A model generated the notes under the pieces. That model saw only the letters and a program-made list of their open reading frames with translations. It did not search any database and was not told the DNA's origin. The position numbers and the translations under genes are program-made. Below, one piece after another: positions 2,819-60,871 of a stretch of DNA of 64,000 bases (position 1 is the stretch's first letter; the number at the start of each line of letters is the position of its first letter). The DNA lies in assembly GCF_007655135.1 (NCBI RefSeq), contig NC_045127.1, positions 17,021,699 through 17,085,698 of the forward strand, given 5' to 3'. Origin of the DNA: Punica granatum (taxonomy: Eukaryota; Streptophyta; Magnoliopsida; Myrtales; Lythraceae).

Positions 2819-3619
2819 GGTTACAAGGGAAGCCTGTTGACCTTGTACAATGAAATAAAAATCCTAATTAGCTAATAAAGGGGCAATGATACTTCCACTG
2901 CGTATTGAATTTGAAACCTTTTGATTATAGACGAGGACGTGCGCCATTGTATTACACTATTTTTTTAATATATATATAGTTTACTATTATTTCATTATCA
3001 TAAAAAGGAACTGAGATAGCATGGACAAAGAACAATGCAAAAGGATGATCTAGCCTTCAATGCCAAATTTCGTAGTCTTTCGACCTTTATGCCCAATATG
3101 GAGAAGCCATAAAACTCAATTTTCTGTGGTTGCATTTAATACGCTGAAATCGAGAGAATTTGAGTAAAATTGATATTTCATCATTTCTCTTTTTAATATC
3201 TCTTTTATAAATTGAAAAGTGCATTTTATTAAATTAATTTCTATCCTCCAACTTTATGAAATGATGTTTTCTTCCAAAGAAACTTTAAGTAATGTTCATT
3301 TCATCATTTGAATTAATTTTTATCCAACCATAATTATTTTCTTCGAGGTATAATATATGAATATACGTGGAGAGCGAAATCTCGATAAAATAAGTTCATC
3401 GGTTTTAATTATATTCCTCCATTTTTGTTGACACTAAAAACTTGCACTGTACGCTTTAGTTGTTTTGGGAAGCATGCCAAGTATCTGGCTCTTTCCTTAG
3501 AATAAGTAGGACTATATAATCCTGTACGATAGTAAGTTTTAGGGGACGACTCGATCAATCAACAACTCTATCTGATCGCTTGTTCAGTTACTTTACTTTT
3601 ATCTATACTTTTATTTTTC
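2819..3619. other. AT-rich non-coding spacer (copy A)
   Basis: No coding sequence, RNA gene or clear repeat recognised. The second duplication begins within the copy-B equivalent of this stretch, at 27,314. Confidence 0.5.
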
Positions 3620-6145
3620 AAGGAAGAGCTTCGTGCCTACCGACTGCACCTTTATCTTTCTCACAGAAGAGTTTCGAACCTACCGTTCCTCTACACCTGA
3701 AAATCTAAGTCCTTAAACCTTCTGGACAAGGTAAAAAATAGTGGAAAGAATCCAAGAGGCTATTTCCTCGAGCCTCGTCGAGTGTAAATATCGACAAGTT
3801 TGATCCGAACCCGGCAGCCAGTCTTGCAGAGCTACGAGCCTGTGGTACTACGCACTGACTAGAGGAGGACTATCGGTGTTGTTTGACAGATCTTACACTT
3901 GGGAGACAGCATCCCTAGCACGCCTAGGTGATTCCGTGGCATCTTCACGTCACGAACTTATCCACCAACTAGGAAGGGAAGCGTGGCTGTAAGATTTTGC
4001 AGCAAATAACGTTTTCTGGCACGCCCAGTGAGACCCACAGTGTAGAGGAAGAATGGAGCAACAATAGGAGAACGTCCAGGAGAAGCAAGTTTTGCCATAA
4101 GCCACTGAAAATCCACCGTGGCTGCACCAGCATGTCCGTAACGTTAACGAACTCATGGAGGATGAGGAAGTGGAAGGAGATCCACTCCAACACTTAGTAA
4201 GATACTTTGCCGATACTCTAGCTACAATGCAAGAATTGGCTCGCCATTTCCAAAACATGTGCGGTGAAATTGACAATTTTAGTGAAAGGATAAATGTTGA
4301 AGTTCAAACTGTAGAGCACAGTTCTTGACAATTAGGGGCCTTAATTGAGGCTAATCCTCAACATAATAGGCATTGGAATCAAGCAATCAGACAAGCCCAA
4401 GTTGTGGATCAAAGGCCTGTAGAACCTCGGCCTGTGTCAAGAGAGGAGGTAGCGCAAAACTTTCAGGCCAATAACTTGGGGGCTAATCCTCAACCGGACA
4501 GGTTCCTCTTCATAGGCCACCTGGCCAGCCGATCCAACCTAATCCACCTATCCCGCCAATTCCAACTGCAGCGCCAGTGTCACCACAGGCTTTTAGGCTA
4601 GTATCACCACCAAATCCACTGCTATTGGCCAGAGATATGAATAGGCTGGCACAAGCATACCAGTCGGTCGATATGAGAGTTCTACAAGATGTCATTTAGG
4701 ACATGTATGGGCCGATATTACGGCAGTTGATTGGCCAGTCTATAGGAAACCTTACCTGGAGTGGACAGACCAGACCTATGAGTTTCTTAGGGGGTTTAAA
4801 GTGCCAGGATTTACTTTATTTTCTGGAGATGGAACTCAGACATCCCTAGAACATATAGCCCTTCTACAAATCAATGTAGCGAAGTGGCGGGAATGACTAC
4901 TTGAAGCTGAGATTGTTCGGCAACTGTTTGACAGGTACGACTTTCAATTAGGACATTGAATTATCACTTAGTTCTGTTTTTGATTGGCAGGGCATGGAGG
5001 CCCAATTCCATACACAATTTTATCGTACCACACCAGAAGTCATGTAAGCCGATTTATCTCAAATCCTTCAAAAGCCTTGAAAGCCAATGGAGGACAATAT
5101 TGCAAGATTCAAGACTCAACAATAGGCCTGCTGGGTTGCATTGCCTGAATATGAATTTGTTAAATTGTGCAAGAAGGGTATGGAATGAGAGCTTGGAAAG
5201 AAGTTTGATGGTATGGACTCTCGGGATTTTATTGAATTGGCATCTAAGGCTGCAGGTTATGAAAGCTTGTTGAAGGCAGAGGCTGAATGAAAGCGGTGCC
5301 GGCATCCAATACATGTCATTTATGAAGATTTTGATAGTCCTGACTTCGAGGTTGATGCTGCCGAAATTATTATCGATCAGCCTGTGACCTACCCACCCTT
5401 GGCCAAGGCAAAAGGTGGTTGAGAGGAGGGGCCGAATTCTTACAACCAGTCTAAATACTACACCTTTGATGTATCTAAAACAGAGGAGGTCTTTTAACTT
5501 CTTGGTACAGGCCGGCTTGATGAAATTTGGGCCTGGCCACAAGCATCCATCACAGGAAGAGACCAAGAACTAGGTATTCTATAGATTTTCGTCCTGGAGG
5601 CACTCGACCAATGAGTGCATCACCTTGCGGAATGTGATTGAGGATAAGCTAGATCGGGGAATCTTGAATGTTCCTGAGAGGCCGATGAAAGTTGATACCA
5701 TACCTTTTCCATTGGCCAGTGCGAATGCAATGCGAGCTGACCTCGGGCCTCTTCTGACAAGGAGGAGAAATGAGGAAGAGGATGGACTCTAGAGGGTCGA
5801 AGGCCTAAAGAGCATCCTACAGAAGCTGTTCATTGAAGAAAGGCTTTGCGTGGCCTGCACAAGGATGATCCTCGAAGAAAGAACAAAGGAGTTGAGCACT
5901 CCTTGGCAGCACCAGTTCAGGCAAACATATTGGCCTATTGCTGCCGAAAGGTGGGTGCCTAGAAATATACCTCAGTGAAGTGGGCAGCAACATTTGAAGC
6001 CGCCAATATCACATGAGGATCGTACACCTGTGGCAACAATAGGACGAGCCAGGGGCTCATTAAATTCCAAGGGGGAGAAAGCACCTCTAAGGCCGAGAAT
6101 GGTCAAACCACCGGCTAACACATCCTCCGGAGTTTGGAAATGATC
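3620..6145 (+). mobile_element. Degenerate Ty3/gypsy retroelement: leader and gag remnant (copy A)
   Basis: A leader with a PBS-like stretch (TTCTGGCACGCCCAGTGAGA near 4014) is followed by gag-like coding sequence broken by stops and frameshifts. Readable fragments include VEPRPVSREEVAQNFQ (about 4420) and FKVPGFTLFSGDGTQTSLEH (about 4800), a block typical of plant Ty3 gag, then a C-terminal gag part (about 5380-5900). No protease, reverse transcriptase or integrase motif follows; coding similarity stops near 6,110. Related copies at 27.7-30.9 and 42.8-46.0 kb carry an extra 394-bp tandem duplication and a ~304-bp insertion that are absent here. Inactive remnant. Confidence 0.75.
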
Positions 6146-6163
6146 GACTCATCCAAAATTGTA

Positions 6164-6545
6164 TTAAAAATCATCAACTTTGCATGAACTTTCAAATGGA
6201 CCACGAACTTCAACTTTTAACACAAAAAATCAACTATTACTTAAGTTCCACATCTACCATCCATTAATTTTTCCGTCTATTTTTGTGGACATGGCAATGT
6301 ACATGGCCATTGCCACATCTACCGTCCATTTTTGCCATCAACTATTACTTAAGTTCTACAAATATTTCTTAAGTTCCACATCTACCGTCCATTTTTGCCA
6401 CGTACATTGCCACGTCAGGAAAAATGGACGGAAAAATGAATGGATGGAAGACGTGAAACTTAAGTAATAGTTGATGATTTTTTGTGCTAGAAGTTGAAAT
6501 TCGTGGTAGATTTGAAATTTCATGCAAAGTTCATGATTTTTGATA
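6164..6545. mobile_element. Foldback (long inverted repeat) element, intact in copy A
   Basis: The left arm has ATCATCAACTTTGCATGAAC, CTTCAACTTTTAACACAAAA, CTATTACTTAAGTTCCAC and TTTTTCCGTC. The right arm carries their complements in reverse order (GACGGAAAAA, AACTTAAGTAATAG, CTAGAAGTTGAA, TTTCATGCAAAGTTCATGAT). The arms are over 100 bp and the middle holds shorter internal repeats of TCCACATCTACCGTCC. No protein is encoded. Copies B and C keep only the outer tips (about 30,905-31,045 and 46,010-46,145). Confidence 0.75.
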
Positions 6546-7363
6546 AATTTACCCCTTTTCTAATTGGTTGGTTACTTTTTCAAATGGGTAATCAGATCAT
6601 TTCATAAACATTTATTTATTTTATATATTTTCAAGAATTCAAAAAATAGGAAATGCTTCTCTATTTATTATAGTAATAGATAAATACTAGAAGTAAATGT
6701 TTTTTTTATTAATTCATCGAATCGATGTTATATGACAAATTCTTGCATGATCCTATATCGTCAAGTGACGTGTGAAAATACCAATTAGTGCTAATCACTC
6801 AAGTAAATGTCATAATTGCTTTTCATTGAAGAAATCTTGTTGGTTTTTTTTTACTACATCTATGTGAGGTAGGATTTTTTAGATTTTCTCATATTATTAT
6901 TATTATTATTATATATATATATTAATTTGGATTACTTTCACATAATTATTCCTTTCTTGTGATGAGAGCATTCCACATGAGTATTCGTTCTGGTTGCCGC
7001 AGACCCCAATTGGAGGGGTGGTGGCTGCTAGCAGGGCCCCCACCGCAAAAATTGAAAGAACTCTAATTTGTCGTTATTTCAATTCTGACAATAGGGGCCC
7101 TAACGACGGCCATCACACTCGGCGGAACTGCAATCTTGATTTTAATTTAGTTTTTCATAAATTAAAAATTTTTAATTGGCTTAATGGGCCCCACTAATTT
7201 TGGGTGGAGTTTGAAAATTGAAATTCGTTAAAAGTTTTTGGTGGCAAAGTCAAGTGAATGTTCCAATTGAGAATTTAGTACTGAAAAATGAATTTAGGAT
7301 AATTCTTATGTCACACCAATCAATCATGTGTTTGAGTGAATTTTTGCTAAATATGCAAAGATA
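6546..7363. other. AT-rich spacer (copy A)
   Basis: Contains TAT/TA microsatellites (6,895-6,925) and a GC-richer patch (6,995-7,130). The short open frame over that patch shows no family likeness and is not retained in the other copies. Nothing else recognised. Confidence 0.45.
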
Positions 7364-8207
7364 ATGGCTAAAACCAACCCTGAACAAGTTCCAAGAGGGT
7401 TTACTTTCGACCAAGACTTGCCTCTCACTTTCCAGCAGACGCGAGAGGAGTTCATTGCACGGCTTGAGCGAGTGACCCAAGCCCTCGAGAGTTCCGGTGG
7501 AATAAGAAGACACCTATGGTTGCAGAGAGATTATCGCCCAAAGGGAATCCTAATTTTCAACAGAAGCTTGAGTACCGAGAAATTCTTGGCATGGATTTCG
7601 GATGTGGACCGATTCTTCGACTACTACGGCATTCCCAATGATGGAAGCCGAGTTGATCATGTTGTTTATCGCTTAAAAGATAAAGCTTCTACTTGGTGGC
7701 ACGAGTTACAAAGAAATCATATTGTAGCTGGAAAGAATCCGATCTTTACTTGGAGGCACATGAAACGACTTTTGAAGGACAGATTCTTGCCATTAGAGTG
7801 TGAGCAACAATTGTTTGAGCCTTCAAGTTATCTTCCGGAAACTGGCCTTCCTCTTGAAAAAGGAAAGTCAGATTATTGATGTTGTGATAGAAGATGAAAA
7901 AGTGCAGGTTGAAGACACAACTTCCAAGAGGGACAACTAAACAAAAGAGGAAGAAGACGTGGAGTCGAAGAACCAGACTATGCTGGAGCGAGATACACAT
8001 GTCTTAGTTATGAATGATTTATCTTTTGAGGAGAATATTTTGGAGGTACTAATTTCAAACTCCACGGAGCAAGTTCTGATTGAACCCACTTTAAATTCAC
8101 CCCAAGTGAAACTTCAAGATGAAATTGCCATTGAAGATTTGTTGATGGTGCTTCATCCAATCGAGGCAAAATTTGCCAAAGCATATACGACTCCACCGAG
8201 GAAGTAA
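7364..8207 (+). pseudogene. Ty3/gypsy gag-like pseudogene, gag-1 (copy A)
   Basis: Opens with an N-terminal helix-rich part (LTFQQTREEFIARLERVTQ), then a classic plant Ty3 Retrotrans_gag core: FLAWISDVDRFFDYYGIP, VVYRLKDKASTWWHELQ, MKRLLKDRFLP. The frame closes at 7,879. A shifted frame carries the rest from about 7,959 (LSFEENILEVLISNSTEQ) to 8,207. Compared with B and C, copy A has an intact core but a small deletion near 7,860. No zinc knuckle, protease or RT follows. It ends about 20 bp before the LTR at 8,227, so this LTR may also have served as its 3' LTR. Confidence 0.8.
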
Positions 8208-8226
8208 CAGTTCAGACAGGCGAATT

Positions 8227-9244
8227 TGATGAATATTTGAATGAAATTGTCTAGAACGTTTCTTCTATTTTCTTATCTAAACAAGTCCCTTGTTTAGTGG
8301 CGAAAACCCCGATTCTTATCGTTCTTCCTTGAGCGTGGCGAATCAACCTAACTTTTCTTACTCGTGGCGAGTCATCTTATCGAGTGAGTTTTGTTGATTC
8401 TACCCTCCACCATTCTTTCTTACCCAGTTCTGGTATGTGAGCTTATCATTTGATATCAGAGCGAAGGTTATGTTCTTGTTGGCCGATTGAAACACATGAG
8501 GGAGTGTACACACAAGTGTTTAGTGAGGAATCATTCTGGAAAATGCAATGGATGAGGAAAACGTCCATGAGGTTTTGAGGGGACTCACACTCAACCAAGC
8601 CAGTTCCTTGGATTCCAACAGGGGCAAGAAGAACTTTCTGTACGGCTTGATAAATTGACCCAAGTTGTTGAGCGATTGGCCTTGGCGCGTGTTGCTCCAC
8701 CATGTGCACATTGAGTTCCCAGACGGAATGTTCAAGTGGAAGATGAAGTTGACCGGGAGGATGAACTTCCTGAAGAAGAAGAGCAGCTGGTTCCACGACT
8801 GGAGCAAAGGAGTGTCGGTAACAACCTCAATCTGAAGATTCAACAATTCAAAGGCACTAGTTCCCCTGAAGAGTACTTCGAGTGGGTCCTGCGCATCGAT
8901 AAAGTGTTCGAATACTATGAGTACTCCGAAGCCCAGAAGTGTCAGCTTGCGGCCCTCGAGTTCACCGATTATGCGAATCTCTGGTGGGAAAACATAAAAG
9001 CACAACGAAGGAGAGATGGCGAGAATGAGATTCGTAGTTGGTGGGAGATGAAGAGACTTTGATGAATATTTGAATGAAATTGCCTAGAACGTTTCCTCTA
9101 TTTTTCTTATTTAAACAAGTCCTTTGTTTAGTGGCGAATCAACTCGACTTTTGTTACTCGTGGCGAGTCATCTTATTGAGTGAGTTTTGTTGGTTCTACC
9201 CTCCACCTTTCTTTCTTATCAAGTTCTGGTTCTTGAGCCTATCA
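8227..9244 (+). mobile_element. Compact LTR element carrying only gag (TR-GAG-like), copy A
   Basis: A 222-bp 5' LTR (8,227-8,448; TGATGAATAT...CTTATCA) is followed after 2 bp by a tRNA-iMet primer binding site (TGATATCAGAGC at 8,451; TGGTATCAGAGC in B and C). A single gag-like frame follows (8,736-9,062; RIDKVFEYYEYSEAQKC, YANLWWENIKA), then a purine-rich tract and the 3' LTR (9,060-9,244, shortened by an internal ~37-bp deletion). Total about 1 kb, with no pol. The LTRs differ at several percent of sites and no 5-bp target duplication is visible, so it is old. It matches the published idea of non-autonomous TR-GAG elements. Confidence 0.7.
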
Positions 9245-9299
9245 TTTGATTGAGGTTGCCGTAACATTTCATTTTCTCCAAAAGTAATATGACATTTGT

Positions 9300-9575
9300 A
9301 TTACTGAAAAGTAAAAGAGACTACTTAAATTGGTGAAATAATAAGACATACTAATGTCGCAAATAAAAGGAGACTATTTTTAAATTGGTGACCAATTGCA
9401 ATAGGTTTTTATACTTAAATTGTTGAAATAATAGGACATACTTATATCTCAAATAAAAAGAGACTACTTAAATTGGTAAAATAATAAGACATACTAATGT
9501 TGCACATAAAAGGAGACTATCTAAATTAGTGACCAATCGCAACAGGTTTTTATAATTAAACAAATAAATTGCTAT
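9300..9575. repeat. Degenerate tandem repeat (copy A)
   Basis: Two imperfect units of about 145 bp, each with GAGACTACTTAAATTGGT, AAGACATACTAATGT and GTGACCAAT.GCAA..GGTTT, plus a shorter partial unit between them. AT-rich and non-coding. Equivalents near 33,830-34,085 (B) and 48,940-49,195 (C). Confidence 0.6.
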
Positions 9576-10707
9576 AAAAAAAAAGGTACGGCACTTGCAT
9601 GTGGGAAAACTCATTCCACTAAAGGGAAATATTTCAATTTAAAAAAAATCATGATTGCAATATAATTATCTTAACTAGCCCAGGTAATTTTAAGTGGGAT
9701 AAGAAATTTATTAAAAGTATGAGAAGGTTATGGCGAAGTTAGCCCAATCGAGAATTAACCTCAGTTAATAGGTTAATATAATGATGTGTTTCACCAAAGA
9801 AAAAAATTAGGACATTTCTAACGTCACAATAATTTGTTAATAGATTGACGTAATTTTGTGTTTCACCAAAAAAAATTAAAATGTTTTCAATGTTACAAAT
9901 AAAAAGAAACTATTTAAATAAAGAAATTATAAAAATATACCGAATTTAAAATTATATAAAAAAAAAAGAGGTCCTGCTTGCTGGCGGACAAATCCATACT
10001 CGATTCCCATCATGCAAGATGGAACGAGTTTTAATTATATCTCCCGCCTGCAGGTGGGCAAACCCACCGTACTCGCTTCCATCATGCATTATGAGCACTC
10101 TCGAGAGAGGCTAGGTATCCAATAAGGTTCACGGGTCAGCTATACATGATTGACGATGAACATGTCTCAGGCCACACCATCTCTTCCGTTAATTATTTGG
10201 CCGCCCGACAAATATATTTTGCGGTCCCCACATCGATTAAATCAAAATCATATTTAAGGTTATCAATTGCAGAAATATTCAGCTGGCCTGATTTGGATCT
10301 TTATCGCTACCCCCCACTTAGAAGGGAAACCCGTGACACTCAAATATGTTCCATTCTGTTCTATTCTGCTTAATGTAATTATCTATGGCCGCACGGCCCT
10401 TCGGGTTTGCCCTCCTGTTACGATATTATCGACAAGCGCTGGACAATCACACCTCGTACTGTATAGATCATTGATTTCTGCATGCGCACTATTATGTGAA
10501 CTTGCAGACACAAAATTAAGATACCGAGAACATTCAAGTAGAAGATTAAGAAAGTACATTAATATTCAAACTCGAACAACTTTGGTTTTTCTTTCTTTTT
10601 CCATTGTCCGAATAGAAATTGAATTTATTTAGTGCAAACATATAGAGATATATGGAGCATTTCTTCCAGAGCAGCTATATATATAGCTTGGTGAAGAAGA
10701 TGATCAA
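9576..10707. other. Non-coding stretch downstream of the thionin-like gene (copy A)
   Basis: 9,576-9,965 is AT-rich, with two relatives of a GTGTTTCACCAAA..AAAATTA.GACAT word. 9,970-10,100 contains two related segments sharing GGCGGACAAA/GGTGGGCAAA and TCC.ATCATGCA. 10,146-10,640 is nearly unchanged between copies. It has open frames of 75 and 121 codons, but neither resembles a protein family, and the low divergence matches that of the neighbouring thionin-like gene rather than showing coding constraint. I do not call a gene here. Confidence 0.45.
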
Positions 10708-11236
10708 TCAGTGGTTGGAGCACATCCCTGAGCAAGACTCCACACAGCCACCCACTTCCTTTTCACCTATAACACAAAAATACACATCCATTAGGAAAAT
10801 AAATAAACTCGTATGAGCCGCATGTAATATGTCTATGGATCGGGAATTACCGCTCTCCGGTTGAATAAGCTCTATCAAAGTGTACGAGACGAGGAAATTA
10901 AGCATATTGAAATGGGAGAGAGTTATTACCGGGATTGGTTTTGGTGCTGAGGTTAGTGCACAGGGATGTGGAGCACCCGAGCTTGCAGAAGTAATCGGTG
11001 TCAACGCTGAGGGCACTGGCCGGCGAGGGGGGAGCCAAATGGACAAGACAATCCTTCAGGCACTTGAAAGAGCACTTGAAGGCGGTCTTCCAAGGCTTGA
11101 TGACACAGAGGACGAAGCAGGACTCGTAGCAAGTCGTGAAACTGGCCATGGACTGGTGAGCCCCCATTAACAGGCCCAACACCACACACACCATAGCAAG
11201 TGATGATGGCTTCACTGATGATCCTCTCCTCTCCAT
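10708..11236 (-). CDS. Thionin-like small secreted cysteine-rich protein, copy A (2 exons)
   Basis: Plant thionin-like family: small, secreted, disulfide-rich, related to antimicrobial thionins. Exon 1 is 11,236-10,930 (102 codons plus 1 base) and exon 2 is 10,766-10,708, with a 163-bp GT-AG intron; the product is 121 aa. The start is the ATG at 11,236, just before a basic N-region and a hydrophobic signal-peptide core (LAMVCVVLGLL), with cleavage likely near residue 31. The mature part has 12 cysteines, ending in a CVESC..MC motif in exon 2. Upstream in-frame codons belong to the 5' leader. It differs from copies B and C at nine residues, all between cysteines. The biological target is unknown. 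Confidence 0.88.
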
Positions 11237-11368
11237 TGCTAATTCTCTAGACGATTGGAAATTGACTCTGTGAAATTGACTTTGTTCTTCTGAGTGTGAG
11301 AGTGATGGGCGGAGCAAGTGAACAAGCCCTAGATATATGTGTGGGTCGGTGTGTATGTATTACATGTG

Positions 11369-11375
11369 TATATAT
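11369..11375 (-). promoter_or_regulatory. Putative TATA box of thionin-like copy A
   Basis: ATATATA on the minus strand, about 133 bp upstream of the ATG. That leaves room for a ~100-nt leader. It is the only good TATA candidate close to the gene, and it is absent from copy C. Confidence 0.5.
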
Positions 11376-12059
11376 GGGATAAAAGCTCATACTTTACTTA
11401 CTGTGAATGTGTTTATCATAATTTGACAATGAAATTAATGCTTTGTGTTAAAATGGTAAAGATTTGCTAAATAAAGTTGTAATTTCAGTAATTAGAGCAA
11501 TGCAATTGGTAGAAATTTAAGAGAGCGAATGATATTACAATCTATTTAATTAAGATAATACAGATAACCATTTTCCCAGAAAAAAACTAAGGAAATATTT
11601 CACTCGTGAAATATATATATATATATATATTTATATATATGTAAATGAATATAACAAAATACTATTCTTAAATATAATCACATTAGAAACTTATAATTAT
11701 TTAACTTAAAAATAGAATTTCTAAGAGTTATATGAACAAACTTTAATAAAACACGTCCAAAAGTATCAAAGAATAATGATAAAATTGAGTAATTTGATCT
11801 GATATAATTTGATAACATATTTTTTAATAAAATTAAACAATTGACTCAAACGATATAATGCTAGGCATTGTGAGTCCATGCATATTTTTTTTTGTTCTTT
11901 TGTAATTAAGTTAATCACATTGCACTCATAGTAGCACTATCATGTATATGTTTTTAAAATAAAATTTTGTACATAAATTACTAGTTCTCCTTGCAATATT
12001 ATTTGTATTGACAGCAAAAGAGGGGATTCAATTTCACTTCAACCTGATTAAATTTTATA
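11376..12059. other. AT-rich upstream region of thionin-like copy A
   Basis: Very AT-rich, with a TA microsatellite at about 11,610-11,640. No coding frame or named motif recognised. Presumably holds upstream control sequence for the minus-strand thionin-like gene. Confidence 0.4.
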
Positions 12060-12067
12060 GAATATCC

Positions 12068-12592
12068 TAGTGTTATTAAAACCGGACCGGACGCTGAACC
12101 GGTCGAGGTATGGGTTCACGAGATTTATGAGTCCAACCGGGGGTTCGATGGGTTGGATTGCACGTCTAATTAAATAATAAATAATGCATATAAAATTAAG
12201 AAAGACTATGATATATTAAATATATACACAATAATTCAAATAATTAAAATAATGAATGAAAGAATTTTTTTATGGAAGTTATTTTTTCCTTTGTTATGAT
12301 TAAAGAGATAAAGAATGATCAAAAGTAGAAAAATGTGGCTGTTGCCTAAATGGCTAATAGGTTAGTTAGGGAGGTTTGAGGTCTTTGGTTCAAGTCTTCA
12401 TGCATGCAATTTAATTTTTTAATAAAAGGAAATCCATAGAACCGGCCGGTTGGTATGGGTTCAGCAAAAAACCGTTCGGTTTAATGGGGTCCCCAGTCTA
12501 AAGGTGCAATTTCAGTTTTCCAAAGAACCCGACCGGACAGGGTGCCGGTTGCTGATCGGACCGGCCGGTCCGGTCCGGTTCTGATAACAAAG
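12068..12592. mobile_element. hAT-type MITE, copy A
   Basis: Flanked by a perfect 8-bp target duplication GAATATCC (12,060-12,067 and 12,593-12,600), as expected for hAT. Inverted ends: TAGTGTTATTAAAACCGGAC and, from the right, CTTTGTTATCAGAACCGGAC. The ends are rich in CCGG/GGTCCGG words; the middle is AT-rich and non-coding. Near 12,340-12,410 it holds GTTGCCTAAATGGCTAATAG and GGTTCAAGTCT, which resemble pol III A and B boxes. Sister copies at 36,595-37,108 and 51,605-52,127. Confidence 0.88.
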
Positions 12593-12600
12593 GAATATCC

Positions 12601-13356
12601 AACTACATCAATAACTATAATATTATAATATAAATTGAGTAACTTTTTCTGATTTTAATATAAATTCAAATGGTTATCTGATTGGCACTAATTAATACAT
12701 ATATTAAACACTGTCCTAAATAAAACATAAATATGCTCTAAATGATAGAAGTCTAAAGTAAAATATGAAATATTAATTTAAAGAAATGGATTCAAGTACA
12801 TTTCTTTTCTAGGAAGCATATTAGAACGAATAAAATTAGGAAAAGTAGGGCCAACAGAGATCTCGTCTGGGGCGGTGGTGACAAAATAGAGTTAGGAAGA
12901 AGAGCAGTGTTGGCCCACATTCAACCGCCACCACCGCAAGTGAGATTACTGGCTGACTTAGAGTCCAACGACTGTTCAATACTGCCCTTTCTCTTATTTT
13001 CTCTCTTTTCGAAGAGAGAAAGAAACAAAGGGTAGGGGCGGTAATGGCTCGAGGGATGGTAATGGCCAATCACCACCGCTCGAGGCAACTTCGTTGGAGG
13101 CCTTGCTCCTCTATCTTCGACCTTTTTTTTTATTTTTCTTTGATTTTTAAATTTGTATTTCTAAAATAAAAAAATATTTTTAAAATAAGGAAAGCCTTAT
13201 AAGAACATTTTATGCACATAATTTGATGGGTTATTCAATAATGTTAAATGTATGGCCTTAAGTAAAATAAACTCAAAAGTTATGGTCCAAATTAGTAATT
13301 GAGTCATAAGTCAAAGGTCTGGTAAAAGCAATCAATTGGGGCTACGTGCATAGTTT
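12601..13356. other. Non-coding spacer up to the duplication join (copy A)
   Basis: No gene recognised. A local inverted repeat (TCTCTCTTTTCGAAGAGAGAAAG, about 13,000-13,023) could form a hairpin. The short frames here are not conserved as proteins between the three copies. Confidence 0.4.
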
Positions 13357-13357
13357 A
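13356..13357. other. Join between tandem units (duplication 1)
   Basis: Left of this point the sequence follows copies B and C (GTGCATAGTTT, then TAGCAAATGG in those copies). Right of it lies CABIN1 intron/3' sequence. This marks the end of one unit fused to the start of the next. The uncertainty is a few bases, because shared T residues blur the break. Confidence 0.85.
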
Positions 13358-15957
13358 TGGCCAAATCAAATGTATGAAATGTAGGATCCCTATAATGGCA
13401 GGTAGTGAGTATAGTTCTATACACATCAGGCATCAAATCACAGAACCTTATAGCTGTGGTTGGATCTACATCTACATTTCTTATGATGCATACATCACCA
13501 CCATGTGTTTTGTAAGCTGGGCAACAAGAAATCACTTAACAATACAATATTCTTCCCCCTAATTCTGTTGTTAAAACCAGAAAGTATTCCAGTGTAATAC
13601 CCAGCGAATGGACAAAATTGACAGTTTGGCAAAAATCAGGAGCCATTTTAGGACAACTAAAAGAAAGGGGCATTGTTTTAGACCTGGCAAACAACCGTGC
13701 TCTACGAGTCTGATAAAGATCACTGATAGTTTCACATGCAAAATTATAGAAACAATGGTGAGGGATTTCAGCTTTACCTTGATGTTCTCTTCACAGTACT
13801 TTAAGACAGCTGAAATGTGGGCCCAATGCCCATGGACCAGTGTGTAGGCCCATAACAGAAGCTTTCTTGGAAGGCTAACATCAAGGACCTCAACTCCTCC
13901 GTCTATTGCCGTTTTAAGTTGCGGTTCCAGAGCTACCCCCTTTGGAGCCAAGTAAAGCTTAACCCATGTTGGGAGAGTTACACACGAGCTTTCCCTAAAA
14001 AAGTTGTAAGCACATCTCAGAAGAGTGTTTGCAGAATCTAAATTCTGATCTGAAGCTTTCCAGATTGCTGTATTCTTGATCTTGTTTAATACAGGAATCC
14101 ACTTTGTCTCCACTTGCTTCAGCTGGGTTGAGTCCTCGAATGAAGAATTCCAGAACTCATCTGTTTGAAGATCGACATACAGGAGCCTCTGGGCATTTTC
14201 TGATGCATTTTCTGATGCATTGTGGTTTTGTGCTTCAACTGATTGCTCAGATTGTAATGGTGTGATCAATGCCAAGGAAATAATAAGGGACCGGCACCAT
14301 GACACAGAAGCATGCCTGCAGACTTTGGCACAGCTACTGTTCGATAGCTTCGGGTTTTTGAAACGCTTCCGGACTTTCTCGTTGATTGCTTCAATAGTTT
14401 CAAGCTTTCCATTTCTCTCTAGATTACAAATGTGCTGGTGGAGACACCTGTGGAGGGGGGAAGAAGAAAACGTAAACCAATTGACATCTGCGTATAACTA
14501 TAAATGATGTTTCTAATGATACCAAACCAGAGAGAAAATGTGAGGAAGCAATTCTAATACAAGCTAATTAAGAACAGAGAGAACTTGCATACTCTCAATC
14601 TACCAAAAGTTTGCGTGATTCAACAGTGATGACTAATGGACCATTTGAATTAGCAAAAAAACGAATATCATCTGAAATTTGGTGAAAGATTTACATGGTT
14701 AGGAAAAAAGATTGTCAAGATTCCCCTCATCTTATGGCTGAGCAATTGTAGAGTTGTTCATAAGTCTTCCTAGTAAAGAAACTAGGTTACCCTTTTTCGT
14801 GGTGTACTGACACAGAAATGTGAGTCAATGAACAAAGCCAACATCTTCAACAGTAATCATGTCTTCATCATAATAAATGTATTTGTTTTTAAATGAGCAT
14901 CTCATGTCAAATTATATGCAATACATTATTGTAAGATTTAGGTTTTTTAGTATAATTTACCCATATAGGCTGCTTTCTGAAATCCCGCTGCACTTCATGT
15001 CCGGTAGGCTGCAAACATCAGCAAACAAATATCCTTGATCCATAAACAGAGCAAACAGCTTCTCCAGTATGTGCTCTGAATTGGTTCCAGCACCACTTCT
15101 GGGTTGGAGCATTGATGCCACTAAGGCTTTAATGTATCTTCCAAGTGCAATTGGAACAAGATCCTCAATGCATAAAGAGAACTGAAAAATAAAAACAATT
15201 TAAGTAACGTCTGAGAAATCTATACCAAGACAAAATATACAGACAAAGCTTCAAGAACATATAAAGCCCATAACAACTAGCGGGTTATGTTAAAACGATA
15301 TGTGCCTCTCCATTAGACCAAAAACTGACAATCCCAATTCAAATTTATCCTCAAGACCTTTATCCCCAACATACATTGGGCGGAAATACAGCTCCAAGGA
15401 CAAAATTATTTGGCCAACTGAAAAATCATTATTTGGATACAGGCTCAACTGATGCTTTCTGAATCCGAGAGTTTAAGATGCCTATATATTAACTAATAAT
15501 GGCAATAGCAATAATAATAAAACGAAGAGAAAGTTGACAGGAACTTTACTCTTTTATCTGCTCTTATAGATATAAGGGCCTTGTCAAGCGTATGGATATC
15601 TTTAGCCTCCAATAGTTTCAGGTAAAACAATAAATATTTCCTGATACAAGTAATGAACTTCCGAGAGCTTTCCGGCAAATGAACTTCGAGGACTTTCTTA
15701 TTTGCAGCCACACCAGGTGTCTTGCGTCTGTTATTAAAGGGGGGTGAAGGCAAAGAAACTTGTTCAAAACAGTCCATTAAATAAACTGAAAATCAGACGA
15801 AGAATCTCAGCGCTAATACAGGAAGGAAGGACATTATGAATGTGACCACATTAAATAGAAGTTCAATTTCCAACCACCAAGACATATGGAAAATGACAAC
15901 TATACTTCATTCACCGAATTAGTCAACTTCCAAGGCGTAAAGGATTCAAAAATGTTA

Positions 15958-35224: not shown

Positions 35225-35753
35225 TCAGTGGTTGGAGCACATCCCTGAGCAAGACTCCACACAGCCACCCACTTCCTTTTCACCTATAACACAAAAATAC
35301 ACATCCATTAGGAAAATAAATAAACTCGTACGAGCCGCATGTAATATGTCTATGGATCGGGAATTACCGCTCTCCGGTTGAATAAGCTCTATCAAAGTGT
35401 ACGAGACGAGGAAATTAAGCATATTGAAATGGGAGAGAGTTATTACCGGGATTGGTTTTGGTGCTGAGGTTAGTGCACAGGGATGTGGAGCACCCGAGCT
35501 TGCAGAAGTAATCGGTGTCAACGCTGAGGGCACTGGCCGGCGAGGGGGAAGCCGAATGGACAAGACAATCCTTCAGGCACTGGAAAGCGCACTTGAAGGC
35601 GGTCTCCCCAGGCTTGATGACACAGAGGACGAAGCAGGACTTGTAGCAACTCGGGAAACTGGCCATGGACTGGTGAGCCCCCATTAACAGGCCCAACACC
35701 ACACACACCATAGCAAGTGATGATGGCTTCACTGATGATCCTCTCCTCTCCAT
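35225..35753 (-). CDS. Thionin-like secreted cysteine-rich protein, copy B (2 exons)
   Basis: Exon 1 is 35,753-35,447 and exon 2 is 35,283-35,225; the intron is 163 bp and the product 121 aa with a signal peptide and 12 cysteines. Start chosen as in copy A. Signal peptide and exon 2 are identical to A, but nine residues in the first cysteine-rich stretch differ (for example W to G, E to K, K to E), all outside cysteines. The protein is identical to copy C. The promoter region with its TATA candidate is kept, so this looks like a functional gene. Confidence 0.88.
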
Positions 35754-50330: not shown

Positions 50331-50859
50331 TCAGTGGTTGGAGCACATCCCTGAGCAAGACTCCACACAGCCACCCACTTCCTTTTCACCTATAACACAA
50401 AAATACACATCCATTAGGAAAATAAATAAACTCGTATGAGCCGCATGTAATATGTCTATGGATCGGGAATTACCGCTCTCCGGTTGAATAAGCTCTATCA
50501 AAGTGTACGAGACGAGGAAATTAAGCATATTGAAATGGGAGAGAGTTATTACCGGGATTGGTTTTGGTGCTGAGGTTAGTGCACAGGGATGTGGAGCACC
50601 CGAGCTTGCAGAAGTAATCGGTGTCAACGCTGAGGGCACTGGCCGGCGAGGGGGAAGCCGAATGGACAAGACAATCCTTCAGGCACTGGAAAGCGCACTT
50701 GAAGGCGGTCTCCCCAGGCTTGATGACACAGAGGACGAAGCAGGACTTGTAGCAACTCGGGAAACTGGCCATGGACTGGTGAGCCCCCATTAACAGGCCC
50801 AACACCACACACACCATAGCAAGTGATGATGGCTTCACTGATGATCCTCTCCTCTCCAT
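50331..50859 (-). CDS. Thionin-like secreted cysteine-rich protein, copy C (2 exons; promoter damaged)
   Basis: Exon 1 is 50,859-50,553 and exon 2 is 50,389-50,331. The predicted 121-aa protein is identical to copy B, with signal peptide and 12 cysteines. The coding sequence is intact, but the region from about 90 bp upstream of the ATG is rearranged: ~60 bp including the TATA candidate is gone. Expression may therefore be lost or altered; this is inference from sequence. Confidence 0.85.
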
Positions 50860-50945: not shown

Positions 50946-51045
50946 CAAGCTCATACTTTACTTACTGTGAATGTGTTTATCATAATTTGACAATGAAATT
51001 AAGTTAAAATGGTATTTGCTATAAAGTTGTGTAATTAGAGCAATG
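50946..51045 (-). promoter_or_regulatory. Thionin-like copy C promoter with clustered deletions
   Basis: GAACAAGC joins directly to TCATACTTTACT. In A and B about 60 bp containing ATATATA lies between, bounded by AAGC at both ends. Within the next ~100 bp at least four more small deletions (about 8, 4, 2 and 7 bp) are seen relative to A and B. Confidence 0.8.

Positions 51046-58904: not shown

Positions 58905-60871
<1,967 letters not shown>

Follow-up and report, generated by a model that had tools for sequence, protein, structure and literature searches.

An island of nine replacements in a tandem cysteine-rich peptide gene of Punica granatum, probably left standing when a neighbouring copy converted its surroundings

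The window analysed here, a stretch of 64,000 nucleotides of the Punica granatum genome (C1:17,021,699-17,085,698, from a single assembly of 320.4 Mb taken without reads), contains three direct copies, A, B and C, of a gene for a cysteine-rich peptide, all on the minus strand. Copy A (10,708-11,236) has two exons separated by a GT-AG intron (10,767-10,929). Its exon 1 (10,930-11,236) encodes the signal peptide (codons 1-31, the cleavage site being a by-eye assignment) and the greater part of the mature protein, and its exon 2 (10,708-10,766) has the same sequence in A, B and C. Copy B (35,225-35,753; exon 1 35,447-35,753, exon 2 35,225-35,283), the probable donor of the conversion described below, and copy C (50,331-50,859; exon 1 50,553-50,859, exon 2 50,331-50,389) also possess a GT-AG intron and are identical to each other in coding sequence. 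The peptide that these two encode, 121 aa long, matches P0001, ‘thionin-like protein 2 [Punica granatum]’, at 100% identity.

Just upstream of copy C, 59 bp are missing between 50,946 and 50,947; the counterpart of this segment, with TATA-like stretches, is present in A (11,324-11,382) and in B. Aligned with A (11,324-11,487), the region 50,946-51,030 of C lacks these 59 bp and, further up, another 8, 4, 2 and 7 bp, and on account of these upstream losses copy C may be weakly expressed. The unit of A also carries two retrotransposon gag-like open frames, at 7,340-7,879 and 8,715-9,062, which match Pfam Retrotrans_gag, the latter with a score under the curated cut-off, and this DNA recurs in the units of B and C, the Pfam run having been made on A's unit only. 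An open frame with a protein-kinase-like domain (59,592-60,008) lies downstream of the array.

The peptide belongs to the eudicot ‘thionin-like protein 2’ family, with which it shares a 12-cysteine pattern that is nearly invariant among the relatives. The family search returned 186 proteins at E ≤ 0.1, and from the 120 listed, 83 were selected by eye, on length and mostly on a named source, and aligned; each of the 12 cysteines is conserved in at least 90% of them. Pfam Thionin is absent among the 19 families listed for these 83 members at E ≤ 1, and the peptide is thus not classed as a true thionin, ‘thionin-like’ being its database name. Copies A and B gave zero Pfam matches. Pfam Ole_e_6 is matched weakly by 3 of the 83 members (best E 0.01), P0001 not being among them, and the family profile matches Ole e 6 (PDB 1ss3) over the first module with an E value of 4.7e-4, the CX3CX3C segments being aligned. 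Ole e 6 is a pollen allergen made of two antiparallel helices, of unknown function according to PMC8198727; it has one six-cysteine module of about 50 residues, whereas the family has two. The AlphaFold2 model of P0001, built with the 83 aligned sequences and of moderate quality (mean pLDDT 70.5, pTM 0.55), exhibits predicted helices at residues 33-45, 52-67, 75-92 and 104-119, which can be read as two six-cysteine hairpins. In copy A the first predicted hairpin, together with the start of the linker, corresponds to 11,027-11,143 on the minus strand (codons 32-70, CX3CX3C-X10-CX3CX3C).

This segment holds all the differences that distinguish the A protein from the B/C protein. They lie in a patch of 106 bp, 11,032-11,137 (minus strand, codons 34-69), at 11,032, 11,037, 11,065, 11,071, 11,089, 11,092, 11,125, 11,133 and 11,137 in plus-strand positions. 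A previous sequence-only reading of this DNA had listed these nine sites, and all of them are borne out, B and C being the same at each. The spliced translations give, from B to A, the replacements P34T, S35T, K38E, G49W, E50K, A56S, Q58K, S67L and S69P, that is nine residue changes and zero silent ones, as that reading had counted. It was also right that no cysteine is touched, A keeping all 12, that the signal peptide and exon 2 do not differ between A and B/C, and that about three differences occur in 10,146-11,020, where the A versus B sites are 10,509, 10,537 and 10,814. Its chance of about 8% for nine replacements out of nine agrees with the 0.06-0.11 that we recomputed for transition biases from 3 down to 1. 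The nine sites do fall between cysteines, but their placement ‘all in loops’ does not agree with the AlphaFold2 prediction, in which six of the nine (34, 35, 38, 56, 58 and 67) are in helix and 49, 50 and 69 are outside. The patch is short, with sharp edges, and overlies the first predicted hairpin and the linker start, the second hairpin being unchanged. The mature net charge shows a small change, from 0 in B to +1 in A. By these nine changes, with Trp49, present in 0 of the 79 aligned rows that have a residue there, among them, copy A departs from the ‘thionin-like protein 2’ relatives.

The divergence of the whole duplicated unit was then considered, on an alignment of A, B and C that spans 3,201-13,370 of A and contains 9,722 ungapped columns. 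With the 512 columns of 3,201-3,719 excluded from the background, A and B agreeing against C there, the A-private background divergence is 266/7,087 columns, or 3.75%. A is the odd copy at 219/5,840 columns in 3,720-9,855 and at 47/1,247 in 12,068-13,370, and at 2/2,017 columns in 9,856-12,067 without the patch. The tract so delimited lies between A-private sites at 9,854 and 12,068, with outer limits of 9,855-12,067 and inner limits of 9,947-11,980. The rates private to the other copies show no significant change between the tract and the outside, neither for B (4/2,017 versus 29/7,087, P 0.21) nor for C (14/2,017 versus 41/7,087, P 0.52), and B and C diverge by 0.9% inside the tract against 1.0% elsewhere. 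A loses its private sites while the distance between B and C stays normal, which makes B the donor of the conversion and A its recipient.

The relationships of the copies change in the same place. In the tract A goes with B at 14 sites, with C at 4 and stands alone at 2, compared to 41, 29 and 266 outside, so that sites joining A to B or C against the third copy amount to 18/20 in the tract versus 70/336 outside. Fisher tests give 1e-26 for the loss of A-private sites and 3e-10 for the change in topology, values which are descriptive, as the tract limits were picked from the data beforehand. The four gaps of the tract, of 683, 629, 495 and 302 bp, are the longest runs free of A-private sites in the unit, the next being 213 bp. 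For A against B, the indels number 24 in the 6-kb stretch before the tract, 1 inside it and 1 in the 0.9 kb that follow; for B against C the same three stretches have 8, 9 and 1. Two features of interlocus gene conversion from B to A are found here: sites private to the recipient are locally depleted with the donor rate staying the same, and the relationships among the copies are locally reversed.

A Sawyer-type permutation was performed with our own script in the manner of GENECONV (not GENECONV itself), with 5,000 shuffles and mismatch penalties of 0.5, 1 and 2. When the nine patch sites were removed from the 366 variable sites, the A-B fragment 9,947-11,980 was reached in 0/5,000 shuffles with a penalty of either 0.5 or 1, whereas a penalty of 2 brought out another fragment, 3,732-3,807 (93/5,000). 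Keeping the patch sites shortens the top A-B fragment to 11,578-11,980, reached in 48 and 16 of 5,000 shuffles at the two lower penalties, and at penalty 2 it is again 3,732-3,807 (101/5,000). An A-C fragment, 12,566-12,743, was obtained at penalty 0.5 with 183/5,000. The test likewise picks up long fragments shared by B and C (20, 9 and 0 of 5,000), as expected because B and C are the younger pair.

Within the tract, the patch stands out by a divergence of 8.5%, which is 86 times the A-private rate of the tract (odds ratio 93, Fisher 7e-11). Compared with the array rate of 3.75% it is 2.3 times as high (Poisson 0.02), and of the overlapping 106-bp windows taken from the background, 6,396 in all, 4.3% contain at least nine A-private sites. 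At the array rate, the spared piece may be longer in both directions, by up to about 80 bp each, and not show it. The 20-fold clustering that had been pointed out earlier stands with respect to the immediate flanks (9/106 versus 2/2,017), but these flanks are not the normal background, which in the rest of the unit is 3.75%. Clustering had been presented as the stronger signal, and it is mostly produced by the homogenised flanks.

The direction of the changes was read from paralogue D, on C3, a distant relative of A, B and C with 76% DNA identity (76-81% across searches); a remoter paralogue, with 41% protein identity, lies 18 kb from D. D has the B/C state, not that of A, at 11,032, 11,037, 11,065, 11,071, 11,089, 11,092 and 11,137, the A state at 11,125, and neither at 11,133. 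As D agrees with B/C at 7 of the 9 sites, A is mostly the derived copy: seven sites are derived in A, one in B/C and one is without call (7:1, two-sided P 0.07), D being distant enough to allow some parallel change. A DNA search of the assembly with 401 bp around the patch matched only A, B, C and the distant paralogue D. The search with the patch itself likewise matched A, B, C and D, counts which are lower bounds, and showed no donor. Comparison with other loci, which had been suggested as a check, thus revealed none that carries A's patch, and the earlier proposal of a conversion from a diverged paralogue into the patch finds no sign in its favour in these searches, D having the B/C state at seven of the nine sites.

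Taken together, a recent conversion of A by B is well supported, and we infer that it passed over the patch, a remnant of older A sequence rather than new mutation or import; we consider the two jointly as probable. About 2.2 kb of A, comprising the promoter, the signal peptide, the intron, exon 2 and the flanks, would have been rewritten by B. The 106-bp patch would have been kept while B sequence overwrote its surroundings, either as one discontinuous tract or as two flanking tracts.

Several data bear on selection in the first hairpin of A. At the array rate 3.1 replacements and 0.9 silent changes are expected in the patch, against 9 and 0 observed (Poisson 0.005 for the replacements). A three-taxon codon model on 115 codons gives lnL values of −691.64 when branch A has its own omega, −693.57 with omega 1 and −695.00 with a common omega, i.e. 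2ΔlnL of 3.9 versus omega = 1 and of 6.7 versus one ratio (chi-square P of about 0.05 and about 0.01, read off by hand), under the assumption of a single tree, which conversion violates. With the mature codons only, the two values are 3.6 and 5.9. The omega of branch A runs to the upper range because there are zero silent changes. The diversifying selection put forward in the sequence-only reading is thus in line with the free branch omega and with the excess of replacements, with support that is only modest. The polarity from D, with A derived at seven sites and B/C at one, points the same way. Against selection weigh the 0.06-0.11 chance of nine replacements out of nine, the 4.3% of background windows that are as divergent and the two-sided P of 0.07 for that polarity. 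A peak of divergence at a coding target inside a converted region, as in conversion opposed by selection, is what is found at this locus, and the evidence taken together favours, short of proof, adaptive divergence of A's first hairpin. We lean, tentatively and short of even chances, to the explanation that the patch survived because this hairpin had diverged adaptively and conversions erasing it were selected against. The result would be a copy A with the upstream region and signal peptide of B and its own first hairpin. In the same tentative way, selection would hold the first hairpin apart from conversion and let it specialise, and the array would share a homogenised cassette for expression, regulation being concerted and the active face divergent, all within 2.2 kb.

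A second explanation, which shares the steps of conversion and escape, is that the uncopied piece fell by luck on the first hairpin and that the bias towards replacements is fortuitous and due to weak constraint on variable positions. The nine sites are indeed among the more variable positions of the family, with a mean entropy of 2.63, which exceeds both the 1.98 of random mature non-cysteine sites (P 0.011) and the 2.18 of random sites in module 1 (P 0.029); columns 67 and 69 consist almost wholly of gaps and count for little in this test. The D-B comparison yields an omega of 0.59 when the whole gene is taken and of 1.09 for the codons of the patch (11 replacement and 3 silent changes), so the first hairpin already evolves freely; the patch divergence is moreover inside the range of the array, as the 4.3% of windows indicates. 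Against such an accident are the replacement excess over the array rate, the one-sided polarity based on D and the fact that, in a tract of 2.2 kb, the patch lies where the mature peptide is encoded. We regard a chance hole as a serious alternative, somewhat less probable than survival by selection.

The remaining explanations dispense with an escaped piece of older sequence, or with conversion, and are improbable. Positive selection acting in a burst on A once the conversion was over would agree with nine replacements of which seven are derived in A, but it would have to place up to nine changes in 106 bp compared with 2 A changes in 2,017 columns of flank. At 86 times the rate of the tract, mutation after the conversion is therefore not credible, and we give this burst little weight. 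No greater weight is given to an assembly artefact, in which polishing would have made A's flanks B-like or the patch would be misassembled: near-identical tandem copies in a single assembly without reads speak for it, but the assembly resolves the divergence of about 4% just outside the tract, retains sites private to A and to B within it, and keeps the C-specific indels. The import of the patch into A from a diverged paralogue, which its shortness and sharp bounds could suggest, is the least probable, given the absence of a donor from the assembly search, the B/C state of D at most sites and the silent changes that a neutral donor should also have brought, as the 3 silent to 11 replacement changes between D and B illustrate.

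Probable conversion with an escaped patch would place the pomegranate array beside other systems. Innan reportedly described a two-locus model in which conversion is opposed by selection. In exon 7 of RHCE/RHD, a peak of divergence occurs at a selected exon within exchanging duplicates, as reported in Ohta's review PMC3966226. Like the patch, it is a short coding segment of fixed differences amid sequence exchange; population data separate fixed from shared sites there, whereas the present case is a plant secreted peptide in a single assembly, for which selection is a tentative reading. For Arabidopsis RPP8, PMC6771003 discusses exchange opposed by selection, with intergenic exchange among three loci. 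Like the array, these are duplicates of plant defence type that exchange sequence, a process which selection may counteract between tandem copies, but they are large NLR genes studied in a population sample, while the array encodes a 121-aa peptide and has one main tract. By analogy, the patch would at most be a further instance of a peak within exchange. The case shows that a cluster of replacements may mimic an extreme burst of selection where the real event would be the homogenisation of its surroundings. If selection spared the patch, the array offers a compact example from plants of selection opposing gene conversion at one disulfide hairpin, and it indicates which half of the peptide carries the specific function in a little-studied family.

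Two further regions deserve a description. At the start of the aligned unit, 3,201-3,719 of A, compared with B from about 27,270, shows A and B the same against C (35 C-odd and 5 A-odd sites), and C differs by 10.7% in 3,201-3,450; this stretch may be either another exchange tract or a duplication boundary. On C3, the paralogues L004/L008 and L009 (C3:4,435,865 and 4,453,737) are 18 kb apart. In the remoter one, the reading frame stays open beyond the cysteine region and enters a Lys-, Asn- and Asp-rich segment. P0002, the protein deposited from pomegranate for copy D, has a C-terminus that departs from the second exon, probably by a missed splice, although an intact exon 2 exists in L004.
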